A DNA stretch of 64,000 bases from Fastidiosipila sp. (GCA_012511175.1 JAAZGO010000025.1:1-64000); one strand, 5' to 3'; positions 13,654 to 30,556 are shown, numbered from the stretch's first letter. A program made the numbers and translations. The notes: generated by a model from the sequence alone, not told the origin.

Positions 13654-14367
13654 TCACCTGCTCTGTTGGCCGTCTGATAAATCGAACTTGCGTTTGATGC
13701 GTGTCAGCTTGCGGCTCCAGGGCTCCAGGATGGGCAGGAGAAAAAGAAGGGTGGCCACGGACAGGGTCAGATTCATAGGCAGGCCGGCGCCGTAGGCAGC
13801 CAGGGCGTTTTTCCAGGTCAGGGGCTGGATAAAGCCGATGATATGCCAGGAATCCATAATCAGGCCGAAAATCAAGCCTGAGAGAAAACCATAAAGATAA
13901 ACAAAAAACCGGTGCCGGAACCAGCCGCGCTCGCTGAAGGTTCCCGCCAAATAGCCGATCAGGCCCCAGGCGAACATTTGCCAGGGCGTCCAGGGCCCCT
14001 GCCCGAAGAACATATTCGAGCTCAAAGCGGTCAGGGCGCCAGTTACAAAGCCTGTCTGCCGGCCAAAGGCGATGGCGGTCACAATGATGACCGCTCCGAC
14101 GGGCTTGAAACTGGCGACGGGGGCGAATACCAGCTGGCCGGCTGTGGCCAGGGCCGCCATGACGACGGGAGGCATGATGTCACGCGGCTTGGGGTCTGCC
14201 CCTTCGAAACGGAAAAAGAAGGGAATGATGGCAAGGATGGCCGCAAAGAAAGTCAAGACCGCCGCCTGGGTGATTTCGAGCCAAGCGCAAAGCACGAGAA
14301 GGGCCGGTACCGCCAGGATTACCATCCATTCCAGCAGACGGGAGCTTCTCCTGCCTTCAGTCCTCAT
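13654..14367 (-). CDS. ECF transporter substrate-binding (S) component, probably for cobalamin
   Basis: 237 residues with about six hydrophobic segments, typical of ECF S-components. The ATG at 14367 overlaps the ATPase stop by 11 nt (ATGAGGACTGA); the much longer open frame upstream of it is antisense-like sequence within the ATPase gene. The GQGPWTPWQMFAWGLIGYLAG segment near the middle is characteristic of S-components found with DUF4430 proteins. As the last gene of the B12-riboswitch operon it is the likely specificity subunit for cobalamin or a precursor. The family is clear; the vitamin is inferred only from the riboswitch. Confidence 0.82.
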   Translation of the reverse strand: MRTEGRRSSRLLEWMVILAVPALLVLCAWLEITQAAVLTFFAAILAIIPFFFRFEGADPKPRDIMPPVVMAALATAGQLVFAPVASFKPVGAVIIVTAIAFGRQTGFVTGALTALSSNMFFGQGPWTPWQMFAWGLIGYLAGTFSERGWFRHRFFVYLYGFLSGLIFGLIMDSWHIIGFIQPLTWKNALAAYGAGLPMNLTLSVATLLFLLPILEPWSRKLTRIKRKFDLSDGQQSR

Positions 14368-15973
14368 GGCCGGCCTTTCGGATCTTTTGGAGATCTGCCG
14401 CGGTGATGATGTCCGGAATGATCCCTTCCGTAACGCGTGCGTAATCGGTTGTGTAAAAGGTATTGCCCCTGAAGAAGGGCCTGGCCGCTTCGGTTGCCAC
14501 AATGCGGCCATCAAAAAGGAGTGAGCAGGTGTCCGCTGTTTCAGCGCTGAAATTGAGGTCGTGGGTGACCAGGACCACCGTCTTTCCCTCGGAGGCCAGC
14601 GTGCGCAGGCAGTCGCTGAATTGCTCCTTGCTGGCGCTGTCCATGCCCTTGACCGGTTCATCCAGGAGCAGAAGGTCGGGCGACAAGAGCAGGAGCTTGG
14701 CCAGGGCAGCTTTCTGGATCTCGCCACCGCTTAGATCGTAGGGATGGCGGTCCGCCAAGCCCTCCAGACCGAATCGCTCCATGATTCCGAGGACTTCTTC
14801 CCTGCCATAACCGCCCAGTTCGGACAGTTCCATCAGTTCTTCGAAAAGGGCATCGGCGGAGAAAAGTGCCTGGGTATGCTGGGTCAGAAGTCCGGTCCGG
14901 ATCCCTGATCTTTTTTTGACCTTCCCGCTGACAGGATCCAGCAGGCCGCTCAGCAAGTGAAGCAGGGTGCTTTTTCCGCTGCCGTTCCCACCGATGACAG
15001 CGTGGATGGACGCTTCCTCAATGACCAGGGAAGCTCCCTTCAGCACCTCGGGCAGGCCGGCCTGGTAACGGAAAAACAATTCTTTGGCCTCCAGGATCAC
15101 TTCCCTGGACTGTCTTGCCTCCGGCACCGCCTCTGGCGGGTTGGTCAGGGGCGCAAGCTGGCGCAGCCTCCGCCTGGCTGCAGGCACATCAAGCGAAGGA
15201 GGGCCGGCAGCTGACTGGCCGGTTTCTTCCTCCAGCCTCCTGACCGCCTTGGTTGCGGCGGGAAGAGCTGCCCTGAAGGGAAGATCGCGGTCAAGGAGAT
15301 AGCCGGCAAAGCTGCCTGGTTTTCCGTTAAAGGCGATTCGGCCGCCGTCCAGGAAAAGGACCCGGTCGACCATGGACAGGACATCCGTCATCCGGTGCTC
15401 CGACATGACCAGGGTCCTCCCCGTCTCTCGATGAATACGATCCAGCAGGTCAAGGAAATGGGCAACGGAGACCGGATCCAGCCTGGCTGTCGGTTCGTCA
15501 AGAATCAGGATGTCAGGGTTCATGATCAGGGTCGAGGCCAGATTAAGGATTTGCATCTCTCCGCCGGACAATTCATTCACGGGCCGGTCAATCCAGTGTT
15601 CGATGCCGAAAAAATGCGCTGTCTCAGCGATTCGCCGCTCAATGGCGGCGGGGGCCAGGCCCAGGTTTTCAAGGCCAAAAGCCAGCTCATGCCAGACCCG
15701 GTCCATGACGATCTGGTTGGAAGGGTCCTGCATGACGAAACCCGTCTCCCCGTCCACCTCCACACTTCCCTGATAGATACCGGCAGGCTTCAATTCTTCT
15801 TTCAAGGCCCGGAGCAGAGTAGTTTTTCCGCTTCCGCCCGGCCCGGCGACCAGGAGAAAGGCCCCGGCCGGCACTTCAAAAGACAGCTCCTTGAGTGCCT
15901 CATTCTTCTCGCCCGGGTAAGTGAAGCAGAAACCATCAGCGCGGATGATGGGGCTGACCTGCTGATCTTTCAT
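14357..15973 (-). CDS. ecfA: ECF transporter double ATPase (fused A and A' subunits)
   Basis: 538 residues containing two complete ABC ATPase domains. Domain 1 (about 8-235) has Walker A GPGGSGKTT, Q-loop VMQDPSNQ, signature LSGGEMQ and Walker B ILILDEPT. Domain 2 (about 290-510) has GGNGSGKST, LLTQHTQ, LSGGEIQK, LLLLDEPV and VTHD. In most ECF modules these are two separate genes; here they are joined through a linker of about 50 residues. The gene overlaps the T-component stop by 4 nt. It powers vitamin uptake together with the neighbouring T and S subunits. Confidence 0.93.
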   Translation of the reverse strand: MKDQQVSPIIRADGFCFTYPGEKNEALKELSFEVPAGAFLLVAGPGGSGKTTLLRALKEELKPAGIYQGSVEVDGETGFVMQDPSNQIVMDRVWHELAFGLENLGLAPAAIERRIAETAHFFGIEHWIDRPVNELSGGEMQILNLASTLIMNPDILILDEPTARLDPVSVAHFLDLLDRIHRETGRTLVMSEHRMTDVLSMVDRVLFLDGGRIAFNGKPGSFAGYLLDRDLPFRAALPAATKAVRRLEEETGQSAAGPPSLDVPAARRRLRQLAPLTNPPEAVPEARQSREVILEAKELFFRYQAGLPEVLKGASLVIEEASIHAVIGGNGSGKSTLLHLLSGLLDPVSGKVKKRSGIRTGLLTQHTQALFSADALFEELMELSELGGYGREEVLGIMERFGLEGLADRHPYDLSGGEIQKAALAKLLLLSPDLLLLDEPVKGMDSASKEQFSDCLRTLASEGKTVVLVTHDLNFSAETADTCSLLFDGRIVATEAARPFFRGNTFYTTDYARVTEGIIPDIITAADLQKIRKAGHED

Positions 15974-16917
15974 TGTGGGCCTCCTGACTTGATCCGGGGC
16001 ACCATGGCCGTTACAAAGGGGTCGGTGTCAGCCCGCTGCCGCCTGGCCTCCCGGATCCGGTCCGACAAGACCGAAAGGGCATCCGCCAGAAAGGGAACCG
16101 CGAAGAGGGCAGCGCTGCCGGTCAGCCAGCCGGCCATGGCCCAGCCGGCCCGGGCCCGGGTCGGGACGGCCAGAAAGGGATAGTAGAGAAAGGCGCTGCC
16201 GCCTGCCAGCGCGCCTGCAGCTGCCAAGGCAAGGAAAAGAGCCATGGCCGCCATCGGCGGAATGTCCCGGGCGCTCCGCCGAATCCGGCCGTAAGCCCGC
16301 CTTCTCCCCGCGTCAAAAGCCTTGGCCCGCATGGCATCGGCGGTTTCGATGGCGTTCTCCATGCTCCAGGCCATGAGGACCGTCGTCATCCGGATGGCAC
16401 CGGCAAGGCGAAAGCGCCCTTTGGGTTCTCCCAGGAGCGCCCTGCGGCTCATTTCAATTTCATGTCCGTGAGCCACGGATTCAGGGATCAAGCGAAAAAT
16501 CATGGAGATCATCATGCTGATGACGGGCAGCCTTCTCCCCATGAGGGCCAGAAAGCGTCCGCTGTCCATCATGTTGTTATAGCTTTGGAACCAGAGCATG
16601 ACCGCCGACAGCATCAAGCCCGATACCAAGCCATAGAGGACACTCTCCAGGGTTACCGAAAGGCGGCGGATGGAAAAGAGTACCGTCAGGCCCCGGTCGT
16701 TGAAGAGGGAGTTGAACAGAATCATCAGCAAAGTCATGGGAACCAAATAGGGAAGCGACCTTGCCGCCTTGCGGATTCCCGCCAGACGGACCCGGAGCAA
16801 AAAAGCCGACAGCAGGGACATGAGGGCAATCGCCGGATGATGGGTCGACAGGGTCAGCACCAGGACAGCCGCAAAGAAAAAGAGGATGACGGCGGGATGG
16901 CGATCCTTCAGCTTCAT
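15970..16917 (-). CDS. ecfT: ECF transporter transmembrane (T) component
   Basis: 315 residues. Several hydrophobic helices fill both ends, with a cytoplasmic coupling region between about residues 150 and 215. EcfT proteins have two Ala-Arg-Gly coupling motifs that touch the ATPases; the visible equivalents are SRRALLGEPKG and ADAMRAKAFDAG, both slightly altered from the consensus. It overlaps its neighbours by 4 nt at both ends, so expression is tightly linked to the ATPase and the DUF4430 lipoprotein. Confidence 0.88.
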   Translation of the reverse strand: MKLKDRHPAVILFFFAAVLVLTLSTHHPAIALMSLLSAFLLRVRLAGIRKAARSLPYLVPMTLLMILFNSLFNDRGLTVLFSIRRLSVTLESVLYGLVSGLMLSAVMLWFQSYNNMMDSGRFLALMGRRLPVISMMISMIFRLIPESVAHGHEIEMSRRALLGEPKGRFRLAGAIRMTTVLMAWSMENAIETADAMRAKAFDAGRRRAYGRIRRSARDIPPMAAMALFLALAAAGALAGGSAFLYYPFLAVPTRARAGWAMAGWLTGSAALFAVPFLADALSVLSDRIREARRQRADTDPFVTAMVPRIKSGGPQ

Positions 16918-17480
16918 GGCGAGTCCCCCATGGTATCAGCCTCTTCTACCGAGTAACGCCATCGGACCTGATCGCCATCCGCCAGTTGATAAAGACCGCT
17001 GCTGACGGCGGGTGCCTGGCCATTCACCAGGTAAACCCAGCCGCTGGTTCCCCCACCGTCTCCCTGGCCCAATCCCTCAATGGCTTGCACAAAAGGGCCG
17101 AAGGAACTGTCCAGGTAATTCACTTTGAGGCCTGTGGCCTGCAGGGCATCGAAAGCAGAGGCTCCCGCGTAAAGGACCAAATCGCCTCGGAAGAAGACCC
17201 CTTCCCGATCACACCGTCCACGGGCAATCAGCAGGTCGACCACGTCTTTGGCATTCTGCTTGGTTTTTTCCTTTTCCAGAACAAGGGAGCAGTCGACCGA
17301 TACTTCGACCCGGATGGGGTCACCGGCCTCCGTTTCGGTCACTTCCGGCTCACCGGGAGGGGCCGTGCCCGAACAGGACGCGACAAAGAGGAGGACCGCC
17401 AGGAGGAGAAGCAAGGCAGGGCAGAGCCGCCTTTTCTTTCTCAGACCGTTCCCTGCCCGAAGCCTTTTTATGTCAGACAC
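16914..17480 (-). CDS. DUF4430 lipoprotein (transcobalamin-like C-terminal fold)
   Basis: 188 residues. A basic, hydrophobic signal ends in a lipobox VASC at Cys36, so the protein is probably anchored to the outer membrane face. After a Pro/Glu-rich spacer comes a DUF4430-type domain: the DALQATGLKVNYLDSSFGPF block, SGWVYLVNGQ, then LADGDQVRWRYS. This fold resembles the C-terminal domain of transcobalamin/intrinsic factor. The GTG start at 17480 overlaps the propeller gene by 8 nt. Its place between the propeller and the EcfT gene suggests it captures B12 and hands it to the ECF transporter. Confidence 0.82.
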   Translation of the reverse strand: MSDIKRLRAGNGLRKKRRLCPALLLLLAVLLFVASCSGTAPPGEPEVTETEAGDPIRVEVSVDCSLVLEKEKTKQNAKDVVDLLIARGRCDREGVFFRGDLVLYAGASAFDALQATGLKVNYLDSSFGPFVQAIEGLGQGDGGGTSGWVYLVNGQAPAVSSGLYQLADGDQVRWRYSVEEADTMGDSP

Positions 17481-18930
17481 TCATTTTGCCTTTCCTGGCC
17501 TTGATGACAAGAAAAAGCAGGAAGGCCACTAAAACAAGCCCCCCAGCCCCGGCAACGAAATACCAGGCAGGGATGCCGGGATCAGAAGCAGAGGGGGGCG
17601 GAAGCATCTCCGCGATGGCAAACACATAGCCCGAATCCAGCGCGTAATAGACCGTTCCGTTCTGATCCGCCACCGGGCTGAAAAGGGTGTAGTTCCCCTC
17701 CTCCTCAGAAGGTTGGTAAGCTTCTTCGACCTGACCTTCCACCAGGACATAGAGGCTGCCCGGTGACTGGTTGGCGGTGAAATAGACGTAAGGGGTCCCC
17801 TTCCTGCCCGCGATGACCAGGGGTGAGGCGCCCACCTCGCCGTCGACTTCATGTTGCTCGGCCACTTCCATGGTCTTCATGTCAATCACGGCCAGCACGC
17901 CCCTGTCAGGTGTTGCCGTCTCCCAGTCGCCATATTCGGCCAGCCCGCCCACATAGAGCCTGCCCCCATAAATGGCGGGAGTTGAGATGGACTTGAGGGC
18001 GAAGGCCGTGTCTGACCGTTTCTCCAGTTCCTGGGCATGGGGATCAAATTCACAGGCGATCAGGCGGCCGTCGTAGGTGGTGAAATAGAGGCGGTAATCC
18101 CGGCGGACCAAATCCGAGTTAATCTTGGAGCCAAGATTGAGTGTGCTCACAAGCTGACCTTTTTGGGCGTCAAAAACCATCAGATCTCCTTTTTCGCTTC
18201 CCGTCACAAGCCAGTGGTCCAGGATGACCGATCCGGTCATGTGAAAGCCGGCAGAACCGCCCTCCTCCGGCTGGTCCTCATGAAGCCAGATGGTTTCACC
18301 CGAGCGGATATCCACGGCATGGACGTACCCGCCCACCGCCATCCAATTCTCATCCAGGGCCAGGGTCAGGGAATAACAGATCCCGTTGTAGATGGTGAGC
18401 GAACTGGTGTTCTGAAGCGGCAGGAGTTCCGCTCCCTTCTCCCAGTCACCGGGGCCTTGCTGGTACCAGACGGATTCCATGGCATGGGGATCGACGGCTT
18501 CCAACGCCCCGCCGTCCAGAGGAAGGATGATGATGCCTCCGGTGAAGGCCGGCCTGGCCGCGTAGCCGACCGGTCCCTTCAGTTCCAGCTGGCCCGTCAG
18601 TTCGCCCTCTTTGCTCAAACGGTAGAGCTGGTCATCCGAGGCAAAATAAAGGAACTCCCCGATGACCAGGATGCCCGACTTGCTGTTGGTTCCCCACTCA
18701 CTCAGCTTGCCATCCATCCGGCCCCAGTATTTGACCGTAGCCGGTCCTTTGACATGGTCGATTTCCTTGACCGCGTTATGGTCCTCATCTCCGCGGAAGG
18801 CGTACCAGTAGTCCTGGGTCGGAAGCGGTGCAGCTTCCTGGGCTGACAGCCTCCCCGCTCTCAAGAGGGAGAGGGCCGCTGCCATGACCAGAATCATGGC
18901 GGCCAGTCTCATGCTTGCCTGTTTTTTCAT
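17473..18930 (-). CDS. exported, membrane-anchored PQQ-like beta-propeller protein
   Basis: 485 residues. An N-terminal signal peptide (MKKQASMRLAAMILVMAAAL) is followed by repeated propeller blades (for example SKSGILVIGEFLYFASDDQLYRL and GSVILDHWLVTGSEKGDLMVFDA, each split by variable loops). A C-terminal transmembrane helix at about 450-472 with a KARKGK tail anchors it, leaving the propeller outside. No PQQ cofactor ligands can be claimed. ATG 18930 is preceded by AAAGGGA; the frame upstream runs into the riboswitch. As first gene of a cobalamin-riboswitch operon it is probably an outer accessory or docking factor for corrinoid uptake. That role is inference. Confidence 0.83.
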   Translation of the reverse strand: MKKQASMRLAAMILVMAAALSLLRAGRLSAQEAAPLPTQDYWYAFRGDEDHNAVKEIDHVKGPATVKYWGRMDGKLSEWGTNSKSGILVIGEFLYFASDDQLYRLSKEGELTGQLELKGPVGYAARPAFTGGIIILPLDGGALEAVDPHAMESVWYQQGPGDWEKGAELLPLQNTSSLTIYNGICYSLTLALDENWMAVGGYVHAVDIRSGETIWLHEDQPEEGGSAGFHMTGSVILDHWLVTGSEKGDLMVFDAQKGQLVSTLNLGSKINSDLVRRDYRLYFTTYDGRLIACEFDPHAQELEKRSDTAFALKSISTPAIYGGRLYVGGLAEYGDWETATPDRGVLAVIDMKTMEVAEQHEVDGEVGASPLVIAGRKGTPYVYFTANQSPGSLYVLVEGQVEEAYQPSEEEGNYTLFSPVADQNGTVYYALDSGYVFAIAEMLPPPSASDPGIPAWYFVAGAGGLVLVAFLLFLVIKARKGKMSV

Positions 18931-18985
18931 GCTTGATCCCTTTCTTCTTTGAAGGTGGAACAGGCCGGGCTTTCGGGCCGGCATA

Positions 18986-19019
18986 AGAAAACCGCGAAAC
19001 TGCCTTGCAGCTCCGCGGT
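18986..19019 (-). terminator. riboswitch expression-platform terminator
   Basis: On the minus strand ACCGCG...CGCGGT forms an imperfect hairpin with internal pairing GCTGC/GCAG, followed by TTTTC. It lies between the cobalamin aptamer and the first gene, the expected place for a B12-dependent terminator. Confidence 0.6.
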
Positions 19020-19083
19020 CCGTTTTTACCGTCGGCTTTGCGCCTTGCCCGTAACGCACAATAAACCGTTGTTCCGTTACGTC

Positions 19084-19840: not shown

Positions 19841-21091
19841 TTAGTCGAATAAAGAGCGAATGACGCCCGCCGCCAAGAGATGACCCTCACTGTCTGACAA
19901 GACGAAAAGGAAGGGGCGGTCAAAGTCGACGATCTCTGACGGTGAAGCTGCCCCTTCAGCCGGAACAGGAATCCACTGAAACTCAGCGCGCTGCCGGATG
20001 ATGGACAGGCTGCGATTTTCCACCTCCTTCTCAAAGTCCTCCAGCCGGTCCCGGCCCAGCCAGTCATGATCCCGGGTGACACCAAAAACCGGCAGGCGGA
20101 GGGCAGCCTCTCCGCCTTTGCCCGAAAAGCCGGAAAACCAGGAAGAGAGCCCATTTTGCTCAAGGAGCTCATCAACCGTTTTGGAGGGGTCAGGGAGAAT
20201 CAGCTGGAACCTTCCGCTCTCAACCGGAACCTCCGCCATGACCGTCCGGTCATGCTCCCTGTAATAAACAGTTGCCTGCGAAATCAGCTCATGGCGGATG
20301 CCGTCCACGGTTTCAGCGGCATCCTCGACGACCGGAAGTCGCAAATTGGCTTCGAAGCGCTGCAAGAATATCCGGCCCTCCAAAACAGCCCTGTCTTGAC
20401 CTTGATCAGGGCAGCCGCTATCCCACAAGATTGCCCCTGATAAAATCCGCTCCAGGCAGTCTTCAGAAAAATGGCTCGTTGCCAGGACTTGGATGGGGAA
20501 CAAGGAAGATTCCTCAGCCGCAAGATCGGATTCCGGCACCAGGAGACAGTTGGAAAGCGAAAAATATTGCCTCTCCGGGTGAACCGGTGACAGCCAGTCA
20601 GCCGCCGCCTCACCTCCGTCATCCGGCATGCGGGAATAGATCAGGGTTTGATAGAGCCCGAGGGGTGAATAGACCTGGTCGCCCCGGCCCGAAAGGATGA
20701 TGGCAGCCGTCCGGTCAGCCAGATCAGGAAGACCATCGGAAACCTGGGAAACCTGCAAATCTTCAGTTCCGGAAGCGGCTTCCTTTTCCCCTCTTGTACT
20801 TTCAGGCAATGCTTCGGGGGCCATGTCGATGGGGAAGGATCCCTCCCCTGGAACGTGCGCTTTGTCCATTTGACCTGTACCGCTCCAAAGAACCTGCCGG
20901 ATGATCAGGCCGGTGACCACGAGCACGAGAAAGACTGCAGCGACCGAAGCCCAGCGCTGCCATGTCCGTACCCTGGCAGGGCGCACGACCATGACCGGCC
21001 GGGCCGGTTCCACATCACGGAGCAGGCCGCCGTTGATTTCCGACATGGCGTCCAGGAGAAGAAGGCCTTGTTTTTCTCTGTTCTTAATCAC
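19841..21091 (-). CDS. membrane anti-sigma-like protein with degenerate serpin ectodomain
   Basis: About 416 residues. A short cytoplasmic N-terminus (~55 residues) precedes one transmembrane helix (ASVAAVFLVLVVTGLIIRQV) and an acidic spacer. The outer domain then matches the neighbouring serpins at landmark points: VYSPLGLYQTLIYSRM against their LYSPMSLYYALAML, and a C-terminal FDRPFLFVLSDSEGHLLAAG matching the serpin signature. The DEKG-EAA reactive-loop hinge of its neighbours is missing, and the loop is short. The gene overlaps the sigma factor, the usual layout for a sigma/anti-sigma pair. Start: GTG 21091 (8-nt overlap, GGGG upstream) or TTG 21106. The anti-sigma role is inferred from topology and context; the serpin relation is visible. 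Confidence 0.72.
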   Translation of the reverse strand: MIKNREKQGLLLLDAMSEINGGLLRDVEPARPVMVVRPARVRTWQRWASVAAVFLVLVVTGLIIRQVLWSGTGQMDKAHVPGEGSFPIDMAPEALPESTRGEKEAASGTEDLQVSQVSDGLPDLADRTAAIILSGRGDQVYSPLGLYQTLIYSRMPDDGGEAAADWLSPVHPERQYFSLSNCLLVPESDLAAEESSLFPIQVLATSHFSEDCLERILSGAILWDSGCPDQGQDRAVLEGRIFLQRFEANLRLPVVEDAAETVDGIRHELISQATVYYREHDRTVMAEVPVESGRFQLILPDPSKTVDELLEQNGLSSWFSGFSGKGGEAALRLPVFGVTRDHDWLGRDRLEDFEKEVENRSLSIIRQRAEFQWIPVPAEGAASPSEIVDFDRPFLFVLSDSEGHLLAAGVIRSLFD

Positions 21092-21662
21092 TGTATCCCC
21101 GTTCAATCAGTTCCATCTTCAGTTCCTGCCTCATCCGGTGCAAGAGCACCTTGACGGCTCCTTCCGTCGTCCTTTGCTCATGGGCAATCTCCTTGATCGA
21201 TGAGGCAAAGTAATAGCGTTTCAAGAAGATGATCCTGCGCCGGTCCGGCTGTTTTTCCAGGTAGCCGCTGATCATCCTGCCCAGTTCCCTGACCTCCGCT
21301 GTCCGGGCCACATCGCTGCCCGAGGCAAGGATCTCCTCCAATTCGTCCAGGAGGAGCGGTATCTGACCCCCGCCCCTTTTCTCCCTGGTTTTGGCCCTGA
21401 CCTTGTCGAGCGAAAAATTTCTGGCCACCTTGCAAAGGTAGGCTTTGAAATAGTGCGGTCTTTCCGGCGGGATGGCGTTCCAGGCCGCCAGGTAGGTGTC
21501 ATTGAGACATTCCTCGACATCCTCCGGGTTGCCCAGGATGTTCCAGGACAAGGTCCGAAGCAGCCCCCCGTATTTGGCCATGGTGGCCTCGATGGCCTCC
21601 TCCGACCGTTCGAAATATAAATCCAGTAGGGCGCTGTCTGTTTTGTCCCCATCCGCTGCCAC
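21084..21662 (-). CDS. ECF-type RNA polymerase sigma factor
   Basis: 192 residues. Region 2 includes the ILGNPEDVEECLNDTYLAAWN block and ends with FKAYLCKVARNFSLDKVRAK; region 4 is KRYYFASSIKEIAHEQRTTEGAVKVLLHRMRQELK with a helix-turn-helix. It belongs to the Bacillota ECF group with EECLNDTYL and IPP-RP motifs. The start is a GTG at 21662 with AGGAA upstream. It lies 84 nt after serpin 1 and overlaps the membrane serpin-like gene. It probably drives the serpin genes through the repeated GTAACC-N15-CGTCA motif. Confidence 0.9.
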   Translation of the reverse strand: MAADGDKTDSALLDLYFERSEEAIEATMAKYGGLLRTLSWNILGNPEDVEECLNDTYLAAWNAIPPERPHYFKAYLCKVARNFSLDKVRAKTREKRGGGQIPLLLDELEEILASGSDVARTAEVRELGRMISGYLEKQPDRRRIIFLKRYYFASSIKEIAHEQRTTEGAVKVLLHRMRQELKMELIERGYSD

Positions 21663-21746
21663 GATGCTGTGATTCCTGCCTTGGAAGTAGTGAGAGGCCG
21701 GTTCCCCCCTGGCAGAAATTGTAACATGCGGCAGCCTCCCAAAGCC

Positions 21747-23030
21747 CTATTCCCCCAAAGGGTTGCGGACGATCCCGACAAAGAGGGGAGTTCCCGCCTC
21801 ATCCGTGATCAGGTAGAGGAAGGGGCGGTCCAGGATCAGGATCAGGGTCTCGATCTCCTCCGGGAAGGGCATGGAAGTTTCCTTCATCATGATCTCGGTA
21901 TAGCCGGCCGCCTCCACGCCCTTCTCATCCAGGGCGATGTAGGTCTCCTGGGAGATGGCACTGACTTCAGCCTCCCGATCCAGCATGGCGGAAAAATCGG
22001 GAGCTTCTTGGACCATCCGGGTCAGGCCCAGCCCCTCCATGTCTTTCAGGATGTCCATCCTGGTCCGGTAACTGAACTTGGGAAGCTGGATGATTAGCTC
22101 GGCTCTTCCCCAGCCTGTTTCCCTGAGATCAGTCAAAAAGCCGGGGTCCTGGATCAAGTCCTCCGGTGTCAGCCCCTCCGCCGGCAAAATGAAGCGCATC
22201 TGGCCATTCATAAGCGGCAGCTGGCCTGCGGTGAAACGGTCGGTCTTGAGAACCGGATAAGAATCAAAACGCCCCCGAAGGTAGGGAACGGCTTCAAAGG
22301 TCCGGTCCAAGCCGTAAAAGACGTCGTCCTCGATGGCATCTTCGGAAAAGGGCTCCACCCAGTCTGCCTTGAAGTAAACCGTATTCATGAGGACCAGAAG
22401 CAGATAGGGGTCGCTTAAGTCAATCTTGGGCTTGATCTTGCCCCGGGTCTGCTCCTCCACCCAGCGGCTCATCCGGTCAGCTGTTTTTGGGTCGGCAAAA
22501 TCGACGGCAAAGGCTGAGGCGTAGAAGTTGTCCGCCATCTGGTCCAGCCAGGCCTCTTTGACACCAGCCCCTTTTTCTCCCACCAGGTCTTGCCTGGCCC
22601 AGAAGGCATTGGCGATCTGTTCGGCCGCCCCCTTGCCGTCAACCGTCATCAGGGCGTAAAGATTGCGCAATTCCTCCCCGATATCCATGGCCTCCGGCGC
22701 GTCAAGGAAGGCGCGAAGGTCTGCTTTGGTCTTGCCGGCCGCCCCGGCTTCCAGCATGGCCAGGGCATAGTAGAGGCTCATGGGCGAGTAAAGTGAGTTT
22801 TGATCTGCCTTCCCATAGAGGACGGATCCCGATGTCTTATCGGCAAAGGCCCAAAGTGCCTGGCGAAAGGCATCGGACACATCGTAATAATCGACGCCCT
22901 CCTTGATCTTGCCCGGTGTGACCAGGGTATCAGCACTAACAGGATTGACGGCAGGTCCGCTTGCCTGGCAGCCGAATAGCGGTATCGCCAGCAAGAGCAG
23001 GCTCATCAGCAAAGCAATTTTCTTTTTCAT
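21747..23030 (-). CDS. secreted serpin lipoprotein 1
   Basis: 427 residues. Signal peptide with lipobox LFGC (Cys21), then a full serpin fold: NSLYSPMSLYYALAMLEAGA, the NAFWARQDL helix, the VLMNTVYFKADW strand, and the C-terminal DRPFLYLITDEAGTPLFVG signature. The reactive-loop hinge is DEKGVEAAGYTE, close to the inhibitory consensus. Counting 17 residues from the hinge Glu gives a Thr-Ser bond as the nominal P1-P1', but the loop is longer than in alpha-1-antitrypsin, so P1 is uncertain. The ATG at 23030 follows AGGAG and lies 37 nt downstream of an ECF-like promoter. Likely a surface inhibitor of external serine or cysteine proteases. Confidence 0.93.
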   Translation of the reverse strand: MKKKIALLMSLLLLAIPLFGCQASGPAVNPVSADTLVTPGKIKEGVDYYDVSDAFRQALWAFADKTSGSVLYGKADQNSLYSPMSLYYALAMLEAGAAGKTKADLRAFLDAPEAMDIGEELRNLYALMTVDGKGAAEQIANAFWARQDLVGEKGAGVKEAWLDQMADNFYASAFAVDFADPKTADRMSRWVEEQTRGKIKPKIDLSDPYLLLVLMNTVYFKADWVEPFSEDAIEDDVFYGLDRTFEAVPYLRGRFDSYPVLKTDRFTAGQLPLMNGQMRFILPAEGLTPEDLIQDPGFLTDLRETGWGRAELIIQLPKFSYRTRMDILKDMEGLGLTRMVQEAPDFSAMLDREAEVSAISQETYIALDEKGVEAAGYTEIMMKETSMPFPEEIETLILILDRPFLYLITDEAGTPLFVGIVRNPLGE

Positions 23031-23066
23031 GATTCTCACACTCCTTGAATCAGGTCTCCACCTCTT

Positions 23067-23093
23067 CTGACGTCAGGACTCGACGACGGTTAC
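23067..23093 (-). promoter_or_regulatory. ECF-sigma-like promoter before serpin 1
   Basis: GTAACC (23093-23088), 15 nt, CGTCAG (23072-23067) on the minus strand. The first hexamer overlaps the 3' end of serpin 2. The same motif with the same spacing and nearly the same distance to the start codon precedes serpin 3. Confidence 0.6.
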
Positions 23094-24404
23094 GCCCGGA
23101 TTGCGGATGATGCCGACAAAAAGCGGCGCGCCGGCCTGGTCAGAGATGACATAGATGAAGGGGCGATTGAGGTGGATCTCAATGAGCTCGGTCTCCTGGG
23201 GCGCCCCTGAGTCCGCCATGAATACTTCCGTATAGGCAGCCGCCTCAATGCCCTTCTCATCCAGGGAGATGAAGGCCTCCTGGCTGATGCCGCTGACCCG
23301 GATCTCCCCGTCATACATGGCTGAAAAATCGGGGTTGTCGGTCACGGTGGCAGTCAGGCCCAAGCTGGCCATTTTTTCCAGGATGTCGATCTTGTTGTTG
23401 TAAGTGAATTGGGGCAATTTGAAATCGATGTCATAGAAGCCGGGCTCCTCCTCCCGCAGATCGGTTAGAAAAGCCGGATCCTCCAGCAGGTCCTCCGGCG
23501 TCAGCCCTTTGGCCGGTAGGATGAATTCGATAAAGCCATTCTTGAGCGGCACCTGAGTGGATACAAAGCGGTCCGTCCGAACTGCCGGATGCTGTTTAAA
23601 CAGCCGGCTCAGATAGGAAGCTTCCAGGTTCATGGTCCGGTCGCCATAGAAAGGCCCATTCACCAAGCCGGGATCAAAACGGTCCGCCCACTCGGCCTTG
23701 AAATAGAGGGTATTCATCAGGACCAGTAAAAGGAGCGGATCACTGACGTCGATCTGTGGCTTGATCTTGCCCTTGGTTTGGTCTTCCACCCAGCGGCTCA
23801 TTTTTTCGGATGTTTCGGGGTCCGTGAAATCGACGGCAAAAGCGGAGGCGTAGAAATGGTTGGCCATCTGGTCCAGCCAGCCATCCTTGAGACCCTCTTC
23901 CCTGTTGGCCAAAAGTTCCCTTTTAATCCAGAGGGCGTTGGCTACCTGCTCGATCGAGCCCTCCCGCGCCCCGGCCATGAGAGCATAGAGCTTGCTCAAC
24001 TCTTCACCGATATCAGCTTCTCCCGCTGCCATCAAGCCGCGAAGATCGGCCTTGGTCGCGCCGGCCGCCCCCGCCTCCAGCATGGCCAGGGCGTAATAAA
24101 GACTGAGCGGCGAATAGAGTGAATTGACATAGGATTCGGCCTCCAGAGCCGCGCCCGATGTCTTGGCGGCGAAAGTCCACAGCGATTGCCTGAATGCTTC
24201 AGAGATGTCGGAATAAAAAACATCCTTCCTGACGGCCCCCGGTACAACCAGGGTGTCCGCGTAAACTTCATTTTCATTTTCAGGCAAGCTTGCATCCGTT
24301 GAAGGCGCAGACTTTGCGCTATCCTCCGGCTCTGTCACCCCGCAGCCCACCAGGGACGTGGCCAGTATCAGCAAACCCATCAGTATTGCCAGAGCTTTCT
24401 TCAT
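23073..24404 (-). CDS. secreted serpin lipoprotein 2
   Basis: 443 residues. Signal peptide with lipobox LVGC (Cys21), an acidic linker and a complete serpin domain (LYSPLSLYYALAMLEAGA, NALWIKREL, VLMNTLYFKAEW, NRPFIYVISDQAGAPLFVG). The hinge DEKGIEAAAYTE fits an inhibitory serpin. The loop beyond it (FMADSGAPQETE) differs from both neighbours, so its target protease probably differs. ATG 24404 follows AAGGAGG, 13 nt after the serpin 3 stop, so the two are likely co-transcribed. Confidence 0.93.
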   Translation of the reverse strand: MKKALAILMGLLILATSLVGCGVTEPEDSAKSAPSTDASLPENENEVYADTLVVPGAVRKDVFYSDISEAFRQSLWTFAAKTSGAALEAESYVNSLYSPLSLYYALAMLEAGAAGATKADLRGLMAAGEADIGEELSKLYALMAGAREGSIEQVANALWIKRELLANREEGLKDGWLDQMANHFYASAFAVDFTDPETSEKMSRWVEDQTKGKIKPQIDVSDPLLLLVLMNTLYFKAEWADRFDPGLVNGPFYGDRTMNLEASYLSRLFKQHPAVRTDRFVSTQVPLKNGFIEFILPAKGLTPEDLLEDPAFLTDLREEEPGFYDIDFKLPQFTYNNKIDILEKMASLGLTATVTDNPDFSAMYDGEIRVSGISQEAFISLDEKGIEAAAYTEVFMADSGAPQETELIEIHLNRPFIYVISDQAGAPLFVGIIRNPGVTVVES

Positions 24405-24417
24405 GGTGTTTTCCTCC

Positions 24418-25746
24418 TTAAGATTGGGCGGGATTTCTTACGATCCCGACAAAGAGCGGCGCGCCCGCCTGATCCGAAATGACGAAGAGGAAGGAGCGGT
24501 CAAGATGCAGGTCCATGTGTTCGTCCGGGGCCAGGGGCATGGACTCTACGATCCCGATTTCTGTGTAGGCGGCCGCTTCAACCCCCTTCTCATCCAGGGC
24601 GATGAAGGCCTCCTGGCTGATGGTGCTGACTTCAGCCCCCCGGTCGATCATGGCGGAAAAATCCGGTCCGCCCTTGACAATGGCTGGCAGACCCAGTGAT
24701 TCCATGGCCTTCAAGATATCTGTCTTTGTCTTATACTCAAATTTCGGCAGTTTCAAGTCGACACCGTAATCCCGCCAGGCTGCGCTCCGGAGGCCGGCCA
24801 AAAAGGCTGGATCCCCCAAGAGGTCCTCAGGACTCATTCCTTCCGCGGGCAGGATCAGGTCAAGCCTGCCGTTGGTCAGCGGCAGGGCTGCCGCCGTGAA
24901 TTGATCAGTCTTTAGAGCCGGCAGTGAAATGAAGTCCCTGCGAAGATAGGAAATGTCCGTCAAGGTGCCTTCATGTCCGAAAAAGTCGCCCTTGACCACT
25001 TCATCCTCACGGAAGTTTTCGATCCAACCTGCCTTGAAATAAAGGGTGTTCATTAAAACCATGAGCAGGCCGGGATCGCTGACATCGATCTGCGGTTTGA
25101 TCTTGCCCCGGGTCTCCTGCTCCACCCAGCGGCTCATCTCTTTGGCTGTTTCAGGATTGGTAAAATCGACGGCAAAGGCCGAGGCATAAAAATCATGGGA
25201 CAGCTGATCCAGCCAGGCCTGCTTGACGCCGCCGCCAGAGCCGCCGACCAGATCCTTCCTGGCCCAAAGGGCATTGGCGATCTGCTCGATGGAATCTTCC
25301 CGGTCAATGGACATCAAAGCATAGAGTTTACCCAGCTCCGGCCCGATCGCCTGATCCCCATGAACCGCCATGAAGGCACGCAGCTCTGCTTTTGTTTGGC
25401 CGGCAGCTCCCGCTTCCAGCATGGCCAGGCCATAATAGAGGCTGACCGGCGAATAAAGTGAATTCGATGCGGCCGGCCCCGTAAGCGCGGCAGACGACGT
25501 TTTGCCCGCGAAAGACCAAAGCGTCTGCCGGAAGGCTTCGGATACATCCATGTAGTCGACGTCTTCACTGATTTTCCCCGGTGCCGCCAAGGTTTCCGCG
25601 TGGACCAGGCCTCCAGGTTTTTCCGTCTTACTTGCCGGTGGCGCTGCCGTTGGCTCCAGGTTGGGACCCGCTTTTTCACATCCCAGGGAAATGGTCAAGA
25701 GGATGGCCGAGGCCATCAGGAACAGGATCAATCTTTTCGTGCTCAT
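24418..25746 (-). CDS. secreted serpin lipoprotein 3
   Basis: 442 residues. The signal peptide ends at SLGC, a slightly atypical lipobox, so either lipidation or simple secretion is possible. The serpin domain is complete (LYSPVSLYYGLAMLEAGA, NALWARKDL, VLMNTLYFKAGW). The hinge is DEKGVEAAAYTE and the loop then reads IGIVESMPLAPDE. The C-terminal signature has DRSFLFVISDQAG, with Ser where the others have Pro. ATG 25746 follows AAAGGAGA. It is the first gene of the island and has an ECF-like promoter 36 nt upstream. Confidence 0.92.
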   Translation of the reverse strand: MSTKRLILFLMASAILLTISLGCEKAGPNLEPTAAPPASKTEKPGGLVHAETLAAPGKISEDVDYMDVSEAFRQTLWSFAGKTSSAALTGPAASNSLYSPVSLYYGLAMLEAGAAGQTKAELRAFMAVHGDQAIGPELGKLYALMSIDREDSIEQIANALWARKDLVGGSGGGVKQAWLDQLSHDFYASAFAVDFTNPETAKEMSRWVEQETRGKIKPQIDVSDPGLLMVLMNTLYFKAGWIENFREDEVVKGDFFGHEGTLTDISYLRRDFISLPALKTDQFTAAALPLTNGRLDLILPAEGMSPEDLLGDPAFLAGLRSAAWRDYGVDLKLPKFEYKTKTDILKAMESLGLPAIVKGGPDFSAMIDRGAEVSTISQEAFIALDEKGVEAAAYTEIGIVESMPLAPDEHMDLHLDRSFLFVISDQAGAPLFVGIVRNPAQS

Positions 25747-25781
25747 GAGTCTGTCTCCTTTCGAAGCTGCTCTCATAAGCT

Positions 25782-25808
25782 ATGACGACAAAAAGGGGGC
25801 AGGGTTAC
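25782..25808 (-). promoter_or_regulatory. ECF-sigma-like promoter before serpin 3
   Basis: GTAACC (25808-25803), 15 nt, CGTCAT (25787-25782) on the minus strand. AAC in the -35 and CGTC in the -10 fit the general ECF sigma promoter pattern. The spacer is T-rich near the -10. Confidence 0.65.
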
Positions 25809-25832: not shown

Positions 25833-26768
25833 TCAGGCTTGGGGATCAACCCAGACAAGAGGGTCTTCTTTTGCCGGTTTCGGGATGACAAGGGGCCCTT
25901 GGGGGAGCCTGGCCCGGATGGTCATGGCAGAAATACGCGCCCTTCTGTCTCTTCTGGCAGTCAACTCAATGTCGCCGTGTTCAGGGCAGGAGCCGGCCGC
26001 AAACCAGTGCCTTCCGGCCTTGATCTCGATCCAGTCGCCTGTGACTGGCCGGCCGCAGGCCGGGCAGACAAAGGAACGGCTCTCAAGATAACGGCGCGGG
26101 TCGTCTCTTTTACCGAGTTCCACGCGCTCCTCCCACTGGCTGACCAGGAAGGGGTCGTAAATGAAAGGCTTGAGCAGGGAGACAGCTTTCAGGCCAGGTT
26201 TGCCTTTTAATTCAGGTTTGACCGTTTCCTCCAGGATACGGGCCGCATAGACAGCATCCGAGAGGGCCTCATGAAAGGGAAGATCCTTGTCCAGCCTCAG
26301 GAAATCGAGCGCATATTCGATGGAACGCTGGTTGCCCCGGGTCGTCCCTTCAGCCAGCCTGGAGAAAACAGCCTGGATGTTAAGCGCCTTAAAGGGGGGC
26401 AGCTCCTTGACTGAGTGAAAATCCAGATTGGAGATCAGAACCTCCGGGTCCGAAGTTCCCCAGGAGGCGAAGACGGCCTGATCGCCTGCAAACTCAAAGA
26501 GTTGGCGGGCCGCCTGTTCAAAGGTTTTGCCATGGTTCAGGCTTTGCTGGGTCCGCCGGGTGACCTGGGCGATGTGGTACTGGATCTGCTTGTAGAGAAC
26601 CGGTACGACACGGCGGTGGAAGCTGCCTCTTACCCGCAGCTGATCGTCCAGCTTGACCGCTCCGATCTCGATGATCTCAAAGGGCATCCTTGAAGCCAGC
26701 TCAGGGTCAACTTTTGGCTTTCGCGAGGCCGTGTTCCATTCAAGGTCGATGACGATCAGATCTTCCAT
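25833..26768 (-). CDS. DEDDh 3'-5' exonuclease with C-terminal zinc ribbon
   Basis: 311 residues. The N-terminal exonuclease domain shows VIDLEWN (the first two acidic residues), an Asp in WGTSDPEVL, and HEALSDAVYAA carrying the catalytic His and last Asp: the DEDDh set. The C-terminus has CPAC and a later CPEH, a likely zinc-binding knuckle. Relatives degrade DNA or RNA 3' ends; the substrate is not evident. ATG 26768 lies 4 nt after the dnaJ stop, so it is probably read with the heat-shock operon. Confidence 0.82.
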   Translation of the reverse strand: MEDLIVIDLEWNTASRKPKVDPELASRMPFEIIEIGAVKLDDQLRVRGSFHRRVVPVLYKQIQYHIAQVTRRTQQSLNHGKTFEQAARQLFEFAGDQAVFASWGTSDPEVLISNLDFHSVKELPPFKALNIQAVFSRLAEGTTRGNQRSIEYALDFLRLDKDLPFHEALSDAVYAARILEETVKPELKGKPGLKAVSLLKPFIYDPFLVSQWEERVELGKRDDPRRYLESRSFVCPACGRPVTGDWIEIKAGRHWFAAGSCPEHGDIELTARRDRRARISAMTIRARLPQGPLVIPKPAKEDPLVWVDPQA

Positions 26769-26772
26769 CCGC

Positions 26773-27945
26773 TTAACGTGCCCGGGCTGAACCAAAAACG
26801 CCTTTCACCTTGTCGAAGAAAGATTTCCGGCGCTCGTAATTTTGTTCCGTCAGGCTGTCTTCAAACTTCTGGAGCATGTCTTTTTGCCCATCTGAAAGGT
26901 TGCGGGGCACTTCAATGAGGACGCGGACCTGGTGGTCTCCGCGGGAACCCGGACGATTGATATAGGGAATGCCCTTGCCGCGGAGCGTGTAGACATCGCC
27001 AGACTGCGTGCCCTCGCGCAACTTGAAAGCGGCCGGGCCGTCTATGGTCGGGACCTCAATCTCTGAACCGAGCGCCGCCTGTGCGTAGGTAATGGGCAGT
27101 TCGCTGAAGGTCCGGTTGCCTTCCCGGGTGAAGATGGGGTGCGGTCGGATGAAGACCTGGACGTAGAGGTCTCCGTAAGGTCCTCCCCGAAGCCCCGGTT
27201 CCCCCTCACCCCGCAAAGTCAGCATCTCTCCGTCATCGATGCCGGCGGGCACACTGACCAGGAGTTTTTTCTCCCGCATGATGATCCCTTCGCCATGGCA
27301 TTGGCTGCAGGGTTTTTCGATAATCTGGCCGGTACCGCCGCAACGTGAACAGGTCCGCGTCGTCATGACCTGGCCAAAAAGCGTCTGCTGCTGGGTGTAT
27401 TCCTGGCCCGATCCGTCACAGACGGGGCAGACAGCCGGTTCCGACCCGTCAGCTGTTCCCTTGCCCTTGCATTTGGGGCAGCGTTCGGCTTTCCGGATTG
27501 AAATTTCGCGCTCAGTCCCGAAGGCGGCTTCCATGAAATCAAGATTCATCCGGTAACGAAGATTGGCACCGCGTGTCGGCCCGGTCCGGCGGGCTGTCCG
27601 GGTCTGCTGGCCGAAACCGCCAAAACCCCCGAACCCTCCGAAACTGCCGAAAAGGGTCGAAAACAGATCATCCAGATTGATATCGTAAGCGGCCTGATGA
27701 CCGGCGGCGAAGTTTTCATCGACGCCCGCGAATCCCAGCTGGTCGTAATTGGAACGTTTGTCAGGATCTGACAGGACCTCATAGGCCTCATTGGCTTCCT
27801 TGAATTTGGCTTCCGCATCCTTGTCATCCGGATTGACATCCGGGTGATATTTCTTCGCCAGCTTCCAAAAGGCCTTTTTAATGGTACTGTCATCCGCGTC
27901 CCGCGGGACACCCAGTACTTCGTAATAATCGCGTTTAGCCGCCAC
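26773..27945 (-). CDS. dnaJ: chaperone protein DnaJ
   Basis: 390 residues, the full type I form: J-domain with HPD (KYHPDVNP), a Gly/Phe-rich stretch ([11 protein letters not shown]), four zinc-binding CxxCxGxG repeats ([32 protein letters not shown]) and the C-terminal substrate-binding domains. It stimulates DnaK ATPase and delivers substrates. I choose the GTG at 27945 because GGAGG lies 5 nt before it and it gives the normal start [13 protein letters not shown]; the ATG four codons upstream has no ribosome binding site. Confidence 0.95.
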
Positions 27946-28019
27946 TTGATCCTCCATGGCCGAAACCGGCCGTTTACCATGTTACCACTTTGTCGGGCAA
28001 GCCGGATGTCAGATGCCAG

Positions 28020-28049
28020 GGGAGCGGGCGCCTTTTGACGCCCGCTCCC
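28020..28049. repeat. strong hairpin between dnaK and dnaJ
   Basis: GGGAGCGGGCG pairs perfectly with CGCCCGCTCCC around an 8-nt loop. On the minus strand no T-run follows, so it is more likely an RNA processing or stabilising hairpin, or a leaky terminator, than a full stop. It could lower dnaJ expression relative to dnaK. Confidence 0.6.
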
Positions 28050-28076
28050 GCGGCTCCAGGGTCATGCCCGCTTCAG

Positions 28077-29906
28077 TTAATTCTCGTCACCGCCGACATC
28101 CTTGAAATCGGCTTCGTAAGTGCCCGGCTCCTGCTGCTGAGGAGGGGCTTCCTGCTCAGGCTGGGCCTGCTGCTGAGTCTTCTGGTACATGGCCTCTGAG
28201 GCCTTGTAGACCGCCTGGCTAAGCGATTCCATGTCTTGTTTCATGGCATCAAGGTCCCCCTTGCCGTGGCTGTCACGCAGTTTGGACAAATGTTCCTCGA
28301 TGGCCGTTTTATCAGCCTCCTCGAACTTGTCGCCGGATTCCTTGAGCAGCTTTTCCGTTTCGTAGATGGTGGTCTCGGCCCGGTTCTTGGTGTCAACCTC
28401 ATCCTTTTTCCTGCGGTCTTCCTCCGCAAAGCGCTCCGCATCCTTGATGGCCTGATCAATGTCGGCATCTGACAGGTTGGACGAGGCTGTGATGGTGATG
28501 TGCTGGGTGCGGTTGGTTCCCTTGTCGATGGCCGAAACGTTGACGATACCATTGGCATCGATGTCGAAACTGACCTCGATCTGAGGAATACCGCGCGGCG
28601 CGGGGGCGATCCCGTCAAGGATAAAACGCCCGAGCGACTTGTTGCCAGCCGCCATCTCGCGCTCACCTTGGAGTACATGGACTTCCACCTGTGTCTGGCC
28701 ATCGGCGGCAGTCGAGAAGATCCGCTTCTTGCTGGTGGGAATCCGGGTATTGCGGTCGATCATGCGTGTCATGACGCCGCCAAGGGTTTCGATGCCCAGT
28801 GAAAGCGGTGTCACATCGATCAGAACCATGTCGTCGATGTCGCCCGCCAGGATGCCGGCCTGGATGGCCGCCCCCATGGCAACACATTCGTCCGGATTGA
28901 TGCCCTTGAAAGGATCCTTGCCAAAGTAGCTGCGGACCATATCCTGAACGGCCGGGATCCGGGTCGAACCGCCGACTAGCAGAATCTTGTCGATATCTTC
29001 CGGCTTCAGGCCGGCATCCGACATGGCCGCATTCAAGGGGCCCTTGGTCTTTTCGATCAGGTCTTTGGTCATATCATCAAACTTGGCCCGTGACAGGGAA
29101 AGATCCAGATGTTTGGGCCCTTCCTGATCAGCTGTGATGAAGGGCAGGTTGATGGAGGCAGTCAGTACATTTGACAGCTCAATCTTTGCTTTTTCTGCCG
29201 CTTCACGCAACCTTTGCATGGCCAGCCGGTCGGAGGAAAGATCGACGCCCTGCTCCTTTTTCATGGTGTCAATCATCCAGTCAACAATCTTGTTGTCAAA
29301 GTCATCGCCGCCCAGGCGGGTGTTGCCGGAAGTCGATTTAACTTCAAAGACACCATCGCCGATCTCCAGGATGGAGACGTCAAAGGTGCCGCCGCCCAAG
29401 TCAAAGATGACAATCTTCTGATCGTGTTCCTTGTCGAGTCCATAGGCCAGCGAGGCCGCAGTCGGCTCATTGATGATCCGGTCCACGGTAAGGCCCGCGA
29501 TTTTCCCGGCATCCTTGGTCGCCTGGCGCTGTGAATCCGAGAAATAGGCCGGAACCGTCACAACCGCATGGGTGACTGTCTCACCCAGGTAGGCTTCCGC
29601 GTCATGCTTCAGTTTCTGAAGGATCATGGCGGAGATCTCCGGCGGTGTGTAGGACTTGCCATCGATTGTATTCTTATGATCGGTTCCCATCTCGCGTTTG
29701 ATGGACATGACCGTGCGATCCGGATTTTTTTGTGCCTGGTTTTTGGCAATCTGCCCGACCAGGCGCTCTCCTGTATTGGTGAAAGCGACCACCGAAGGTG
29801 TGGTCCGGCTGCCTTCCGCGTTGACGATGACAACCGGCTCACCGCCTTCCATGACCGATACGACAGAGTTGGTCGTTCCCAAGTCAATTCCTATAATCTT
29901 GCTCAT
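28077..29906 (-). CDS. dnaK: chaperone protein DnaK (Hsp70)
   Basis: 609 residues, the normal Gram-positive length. The nucleotide-binding domain has [31 protein letters not shown] and [11 protein letters not shown]; the linker is followed by the substrate domain and a Gln/Pro-rich tail ending in DVGGDEN. ATP-driven folding chaperone working with GrpE and DnaJ. ATG 29906 follows AGAGGGAAAG. Controlled with hrcA from the CIRCE promoter. Confidence 0.97.
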
Positions 29907-30013
29907 CTTCTTTCCCTCTTTTCATCAAACTGTTTCCGCGCCCTCCTCCTGACTGTCCCGTGCCGGCGCGGTAAGCCGGGACATCAAGTAATTTTTCGTT
30001 GACCGCAGAGCTT

Positions 30014-30556
30014 CTAATTGACCACCCGGACCATGCTGTGCCGGATGACACGATCCCCCTTGCGGTAACCCTTCTGGTAGACTTCGACGACGTAATTCTC
30101 GGGAAGTTCCTCATCCTCGCCGTGGATGACCACCTGATGGATGCTGGGATCGAAGTCCGATCCCTTGCCATCGATTTCCGTCACGCCCAGCTTCTGGAAG
30201 GCTTCTTCCAGCTGGAGGGCAATCAGGACGACCCCCTGGGCAAATTCCCGTGCCTCATCTGTCGCGCAGGCTTGCGCCGCCTTGATGGCCGCGTCCACGC
30301 TGTCGACAACCGGAAGCAGCGCGCGGACGGTATCAATGACGGCTTCCTCATAGCCTGCCGCCCGATCCTGCCGTGTTCTCCTTCTGAAATTGTCGAAGTC
30401 GGCACAGACACGCAAGTAGCGGTCGTTGAGCTCACGCAGTTCATCCTCCGGTGATTTTTCCTCCCCCTCCTCCGCTTCCTCCATGATTTCGAGTTCCTCC
30501 GCAGGTTCGGCCGGAGCCATTTCCTGTTTCTTTTCTTTTTCCTTTGATCCGCTCAT
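30014..30556 (-). CDS. grpE: nucleotide exchange factor GrpE
   Basis: 180 residues. A Glu-rich, coiled-coil N-terminal half is followed by ADFDNFRRRTRQDR and the C-terminal beta domain ending GDRVIRHSMVRVVN. It releases ADP from DnaK. The ATG at 30556 overlaps the hrcA stop by 4 nt. Confidence 0.95.
   Translation of the reverse strand: MSGSKEKEKKQEMAPAEPAEELEIMEEAEEGEEKSPEDELRELNDRYLRVCADFDNFRRRTRQDRAAGYEEAVIDTVRALLPVVDSVDAAIKAAQACATDEAREFAQGVVLIALQLEEAFQKLGVTEIDGKGSDFDPSIHQVVIHGEDEELPENYVVEVYQKGYRKGDRVIRHSMVRVVN

Follow-up and report, generated by a model that had tools for sequence, protein, structure and literature searches.

Anti-sigma factors with sensor ectodomains, such as RsiV and RsgI, are already known. 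In B. subtilis and C. difficile, the ectodomain of RsiV, a membrane anti-sigma factor, captures the attacking enzyme, lysozyme, and inhibits it; sigma-V is thereby freed, and the binding triggers proteolysis of RsiV itself and a protective regulon (PMC5014341). In the RsgI/SigI systems of C. thermocellum and its relatives, the outer domains are derived from the enzymes or binding modules whose genes the anti-sigma factors control (PMC3990059, PMC3413522). In Bifidobacterium breve, serpin expression is reported to be protease-induced and autoregulated, with the regulators SerRK encoded next to the serpin (as cited in PMC8012564). Here we describe a serpin locus at positions 19841-25808 of a 64,000-nucleotide stretch of DNA from Fastidiosipila sp. 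(GCA_012511175.1, JAAZGO010000025.1:1-64000; the whole stretch is called the window). In this locus, an extracytoplasmic function (ECF) sigma factor gene overlaps the gene of a membrane protein with a degenerate serpin as its ectodomain. The locus is likely to be a sigma/anti-sigma unit, in which a serpin-derived sensor within the anti-sigma factor controls a serpin regulon.

RsiV offers the closest logic to the switch proposed here. The RsiV ectodomain, however, is not a serpin and its enzyme is lysozyme, whereas here the ectodomain has a serpin fold, the output consists of serpins, and the inhibitory loop of the window protein is lost; Pfam matched no RsiV-type lysozyme-binding ectodomain in this protein. 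RsgI differs in having its own RsgI domains, none of which Pfam found in the window protein, and in sensing polysaccharides. SerRK is a sensor kinase with a response regulator, and it includes neither a sigma factor nor a serpin-derived sensor. The surface or secreted bacterial serpins miropin, the siropins and cellulosomal PinA belong to the same family as the window serpins and have the inhibitory-type hinge, but they are effectors only, and we know of none described as an anti-sigma ectodomain. The serpin fold is reused without protease trapping in angiotensinogen, HSP47 and PEDF; these are eukaryotic, however, and are not membrane-anchored signaling receptors. The literature search found no paper linking a serpin to an anti-sigma factor, and the co-mentions examined stood in unrelated passages. 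An earlier reading of the DNA, made from the sequence alone (the sequence-only reading), had likewise known of no sigma/anti-sigma pair with a serpin sensor.

Organization of the Locus

The window is contig C25 of a 1.7-Mb genome (G000) that is 97.7% complete. An alignment-based search of genome contigs placed its closest named relatives among Clostridia metagenome-assembled genomes (MAGs); 'Clostridiales bacterium DTU023' and 'Mageeibacillus sp. UBA5438' are two examples. Serpin 1 alone as the query gave zero matches. Many members of these isolate series come from anaerobic digesters. The genus genomes compared are all drafts and are probably metagenome-assembled.

All features of the locus lie on the minus strand, where three consecutive serpin open reading frames (ORFs) are followed by the sigma factor gene and then by the overlapping gene of the single-pass membrane protein. 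The sigma factor (21084-21662, 192 amino acids) contains only sigma region 2 and region 4, both above the Pfam cut-off (Sigma70_r2, E 6e-11; r4_2, E 3e-8), as expected of an ECF sigma factor. The genome has only three further Sigma70_r2 genes, which encode a housekeeping-like factor, a factor with an RsgI-type partner, and a factor with a short membrane partner. A second sigma/anti-sigma pair lies on contig C24 (L147), and its RsgI-like partner has an RsgI_M domain and two PepSY (peptidase propeptide) domains.

The membrane protein (19841-21091, 416 amino acids) is a candidate anti-sigma factor, and its homologues occupy the same place in relatives. Its gene ends at 19841 and starts at GTG 21091, which gives an 8-bp overlap with the sigma gene, or alternatively at TTG 21106. 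Hydropathy indicates one transmembrane (TM) segment (20900-20953), centered near residue 59-64, preceded by the N-terminal cytoplasmic module LLLLDAMSEINGGLLRDVEPA (20954-21091), the putative sigma-binding part. Co-encoding, translational overlap, a single TM segment and a cytoplasmic N-terminus are the architecture of an ECF anti-sigma factor, with a topology predicted by hydropathy only. The N-terminal motif LLDAIG.ID..LI recurs in the membrane proteins paired with this sigma subfamily, regardless of ectodomain, and its retention is the pattern expected of a sigma-binding module. The sequence-only reading had correctly recognized the ECF sigma gene beside the serpins and the overlapping gene for a single-pass membrane protein.

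Serpin 3 (24418-25746; Pfam Serpin E 2.3e-57), serpin 2 (23073-24404; E 8.7e-56) and serpin 1 (21747-23039; E 3.1e-60) are the only Pfam serpins in the entire genome. All three have an inhibitory-type hinge, DEKG[VI]EAA, which reads DEKGVEAAAYT, DEKGIEAAAYT and DEKGVEAAGYT, respectively. They had been called secreted serpins. The assignment as serpins stands, but free secretion is less likely: lipobox-like cysteines, clear in serpins 2 and 3 and weaker in serpin 1, suggest that they are probably surface lipoproteins. The start of serpin 3, the first gene of the operon, almost certainly lies at its second ATG, 25746, and not at the annotated 25776, because an ECF-type promoter ends 8 nt ahead of the annotated ATG and the ribosome site AAAGGAG precedes the second.

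The Ectodomain as a Divergent Serpin

The ectodomain (19844-20722) ends in the C-terminal serpin signature VDFDRPFLFVL. The only Pfam match of the membrane protein was Serpin at residues 387-414, and its 10.9 bits fell below the cut-off of 27, which is a detection threshold and not a biological feature; serpin membership rests on profile comparison and fold. As a single sequence, the protein gave zero matches in the PDB, and the serpin assignment therefore required a profile. An alignment of six homologues matched solved serpins in the PDB, and in a profile-profile comparison (hhalign) with the neighboring serpins it aligned over the whole domain (99.6% probability, E 4.8e-25, 333 columns). 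An AlphaFold model made from three membrane proteins, with serpins left out of the alignment, was poor overall (predicted template modeling score, pTM, 0.45), and its top 50 Foldseek matches were all serpins, at E about 1e-5. It counts against the fold assignment that this model is poor in its N-terminal half, and that a deeper model with the neighboring serpins added is biased to the serpin fold by their presence in its alignment (predicted local distance difference test score, pLDDT, 80; pTM 0.82; Foldseek E 1e-16; VIA Z 24.2, root-mean-square deviation 3.1 over 283 residues). The Foldseek and VIA matches of the models were all serpins, and the fold matches included the non-inhibitory angiotensinogen, HSP47 and PEDF. 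Judged by profile comparison and predicted structure, the ectodomain is a divergent serpin. A predicted structure other than a serpin had been set beforehand as grounds for giving up the sequence-only reading, and the prediction did not go that way.

The reactive loop is where the ectodomain departs from its neighbors. The P17-P8 hinge of small residues (DEKG-EAA) is absent from the window protein and its closest homologues; in place of ALDEKGVEAAGYTEI... in the neighboring serpins, a short FQWIPVPAEGAASPSEIV stands ahead of the conserved VDFDRPFLFVL of the window protein. Both the serpin landmarks and the missing hinge had been noticed in the sequence-only reading and are confirmed. Such degenerate ectodomains are only 24-46% identical to one another, with the C-terminal serpin signature invariant.

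Conservation of the Sigma/Membrane-Serpin Pair

Five intact membrane serpins served as queries against 188 genomes of the order, and the genes upstream of the matches were checked. In about 20 genomes from three families (f1, f3 and f4), the membrane serpin gene is immediately preceded by a sigma gene of the same subfamily as in the window. The typical partner in these families combines the LLDAIG.ID..LI motif with a single TM segment and a complete serpin, and the sigma gene usually overlaps it. The three complete membrane serpins tested scored 207-234 bits in Pfam. Intact membrane serpins retain an inhibitory-type hinge (for example, DEKGVTGAAYT, DENGVEASAFT and DEEGCKAAAVT), and this is the majority state among the relatives of the pair. 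A class-wide sample of 391 genomes added the pair in at least two further families (f15 and f18), and family f69 has the same arrangement with a different sigma subgroup. The pair is conserved beside serpins in relatives, so the second observation on which the sequence-only reading had been staked also leaves it standing. At the loci L236 (1492-3781) and L237 (genomes G357 and G418), the gene after an ECF sigma factor of a different subgroup encodes a 578-amino-acid protein in which a long N-terminal cytoplasmic part and a TM segment precede an intact serpin; this pairing of a sigma factor with a serpin receptor is apparently an independent one.

Within the sigma clade of the window, the serpin ectodomain is either degenerate or replaced. 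A degenerate-serpin partner follows the sigma gene in six genus genomes (G018, G029, G027, G028, G030 and G023). The sigma tree unites the genus sigma factors with degenerate or replaced partners in a single clade with support of 100/99, within which sigma factors of the same partner type cluster. The tree requires several changes of partner type and thus does not show that the serpin association arose only once. A serpin ectodomain in all sigma/membrane pairs of the subfamily was considered and rejected, since many pairs carry other ectodomains.

Further arrangements were seen among the relatives. At five loci in Lachnospiraceae MAGs (L138, L140, L141, L144 and L145), a sigma factor of the subfamily and a membrane partner with no serpin match are followed, directly or after one further gene, by a secreted serpin gene; the L138 partner has a Big_14 domain. 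These loci are another sigma/serpin linkage. L087, L088 and L092 (genomes G010, G015 and G014) encode membrane serpins that have an anti-sigma-like N-terminus and for which no sigma gene was found upstream, and these are possible orphan receptors.

A Shared Promoter Motif and the Predicted Serpin Regulon

The ECF-type promoter GTAACC-N13-GTCGTC precedes the serpin operon at 25784-25808. It is the sole exact match in the 1.7-Mb genome and is shared with sister species. A copy with one mismatch, GTAACC-N13-GACGTC (23069-23093), lies directly upstream of serpin 1, and the only other gene that joins at one mismatch encodes a DUF4349 lipoprotein (L216:459-1427, on contig C5). The homologue of the latter in G027 (L207:1591-2655, on contig C8) has the exact motif, and the DUF4349 lipoprotein is a probable further member of the regulon. 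In 14 whole genus genomes, GTAACC-N12-14-GTCGTC has 15 exact matches and the reversed pattern 3. Eleven of the 15 immediately precede a serpin gene or the sigma gene, a placement with a probability below 1e-30 if the motifs were placed at random. Within one mismatch, the motif precedes 13 of 24 genus serpins versus 0 of 18 sister-genus serpins; the second genes of serpin operons usually lack it. In G027, G028 and G030, the motif stands ahead of the pair's sigma gene; the copy in G023 (contig C68) departs from it by a single base (GCAACC). The pair and the serpins lie on different contigs in G027, G028 and G030, and the motif is also present ahead of those distant serpins. Because the motif is shared by linked and unlinked serpin genes and by sigma genes, a regulatory link from the sigma factor to the serpin genes is supported. 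Control of the serpins by the sigma factor, which the sequence-only reading had guessed, is well supported as a prediction from motif distribution.

A second element, an extended -10-like sequence (TGTTACAATTTC, 21715-21726), lies between serpin 1 and the sigma gene. The same -10-like element precedes the sigma genes of the clade in G018, G029, G027, G028, G030, G023 and G024-026, and the element conserved across the clade, TGNTACAATTTC, resembles a basal extended -10 promoter. It is the probable housekeeping promoter of the sigma/anti-sigma pair. The sigma factors with intact-type partners (G017, G022, G023 and G024) have a separate motif of their own, found only at those four operons among 38 genomes, and a family-wide search with the strict form of this motif for further targets returned only these operons. 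As judged from this motif, the intact-type pair is a self-contained unit whose main product would be the receptor-inhibitor itself.

Neighboring Genes

Ahead of the serpins, the window carries grpE-dnaK-dnaJ and an exonuclease gene (25833-30556), and by gene size the same order is present ahead of the serpins in G018, G019 and G024-026. Read-through from these heat-shock genes is therefore conceivable, and the serpin unit may receive it. Downstream of the membrane protein gene, past an OsmC-like gene, positions 14357-19059 contain a gene for a PQQ repeat protein resembling BamB, a DUF4430 gene and ABC/ECF-transporter-like genes. Clusters of this kind, again including the PQQ protein, lie next to the sigma/membrane pair in G019 and G027; for G028, the resemblance is one of size and TM pattern.

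Proposed Mechanism

Gene order and overlap, the serpin fold, the loss of the hinge, the shared promoter and the conservation of the pair over several families are the observed pieces of the system. According to the proposed model, basal transcription would yield the sigma factor and its membrane partner, and the short cytoplasmic N-terminal module of the partner would hold the sigma factor, as is general in ECF systems. A signal at the outer serpin domain would then cause the partner to be lost, probably through stepwise proteolysis as in other ECF systems; a site-2 protease gene is encoded in the genome. The freed sigma factor would transcribe from GTAACC-N13-GTCGTC the surface serpins and, in sister species, the sigma operon. 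The outcome would be more inhibitor and more of the switch.

We infer that the triggering signal is extracellular protease attack, sensed by the serpin-like domain. Since protease induction of a serpin, through a two-component system, is known in B. breve (PMC8012564), such a physiology is plausible. In relatives with an intact loop, for which cleavage of this loop by a protease would be the obvious signal, the receptor would probably trap the protease and signal through the serpin shape change or through being cut, as RsiV does with lysozyme. The degenerate receptor of the window would be unable to trap a protease, and it is therefore more likely to act as a decoy that is cut by the protease, or as a detector of neighboring serpins that are depleted or protease-bound. 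It is quite possible, if somewhat doubtful, that in the lineage of the window the receptor evolved further into a dedicated non-inhibitory serpin sensor and left inhibition to the separate surface serpins. The sequence-only interpretation as a whole is partly supported. It did not include the intact receptors with inhibitory-type hinges of most relatives, nor the generic nature of the N-terminal module among the membrane partners of the sigma subfamily.

Alternative Explanations

Several observations count against a sigma/anti-sigma unit with a serpin-derived sensor. The Pfam scan recognized no anti-sigma domain in the N-terminal module. Four of the 15 exact motifs are elsewhere, two upstream of other lipoproteins and two within coding sequence. 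The motif is present at serpins in G022 (exact) and G021 (one mismatch), both incomplete assemblies in which the clade sigma was not found. In G024-026 the motif is apparently shifted and the partner of the clade sigma has a different ectodomain. In G019 and G024-026, the clade sigma is still beside serpins and the ectodomain of its partner is not a serpin; a serpin sensor is therefore not indispensable for serpin control. The finds in G021 and G022 would also suit a motif that belongs to another sigma factor, with the linkage of sigma and serpin genes a coincidence. Autoregulation is typical of ECF sigma factors, however, and the motif stands ahead of the clade's own sigma genes as well; the genome of the window has just two more alternative sigma genes, one of them with an RsgI-type partner, and the motif is missing from the sister-genus serpins. 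This explanation is highly improbable. Nearly as hard to credit is the view that the membrane protein is an inhibitor or adhesin merely co-transcribed with the sigma gene. Besides the missing Pfam domain, it can draw on the lack of the zinc-type Hx3Cx2C motif, His and Cys being absent from residues 1-47, a motif that is lacking in many membrane anti-sigma factors (PMC7406223). The subfamily partners, whatever their ectodomain, nevertheless share the LLDAIG.ID..LI motif and overlap the sigma gene.

The remaining explanations accept an anti-sigma factor and concern what it senses. The pair could control the serpins while the degenerate ectodomain senses a non-protease cue, such as a small ligand, a polysaccharide or envelope stress, in the manner of carrier or chaperone serpins. 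The absence of the hinge, which the closest relatives of the window protein also lack, would fit this, as would the unrelated ectodomains of related partners in the same operon position, and the motif ahead of the DUF4349 lipoprotein gene is more reminiscent of envelope stress. Yet the output consists of protease inhibitors, and relatives of the same architecture retain an intact inhibitory-type serpin; we regard a non-protease cue as unlikely, though worth serious consideration. The low identity among degenerate ectodomains, and the other domains found in their place in G019 and G024-026, could also mean that the ectodomain is a non-functional relic and that the signal is read elsewhere, by a site-1 protease or at the linker. 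One would expect a mere relic to disappear or to become truncated, whereas an open, foldable frame with an invariant C-terminal signature has been kept over several species of the genus, and we consider a relic distinctly improbable.

Implications

If the proposed sigma/anti-sigma unit with a serpin-derived sensor is correct, it would be, as far as the literature searched shows, the first case of a serpin acting as the sensor of a transcriptional switch, and no earlier anti-sigma factor would have had an ectodomain of the serpin type. The system supplies a promoter and a regulon that can be tested. The natural series of receptors, from intact to degenerate to replaced, provides material for studying how an inhibitor evolves into a receptor. 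The locus offers a possible answer to how serpin-making bacteria detect proteases: from a protease inhibitor, bacteria appear to have made a sensor that calls for more inhibitor.

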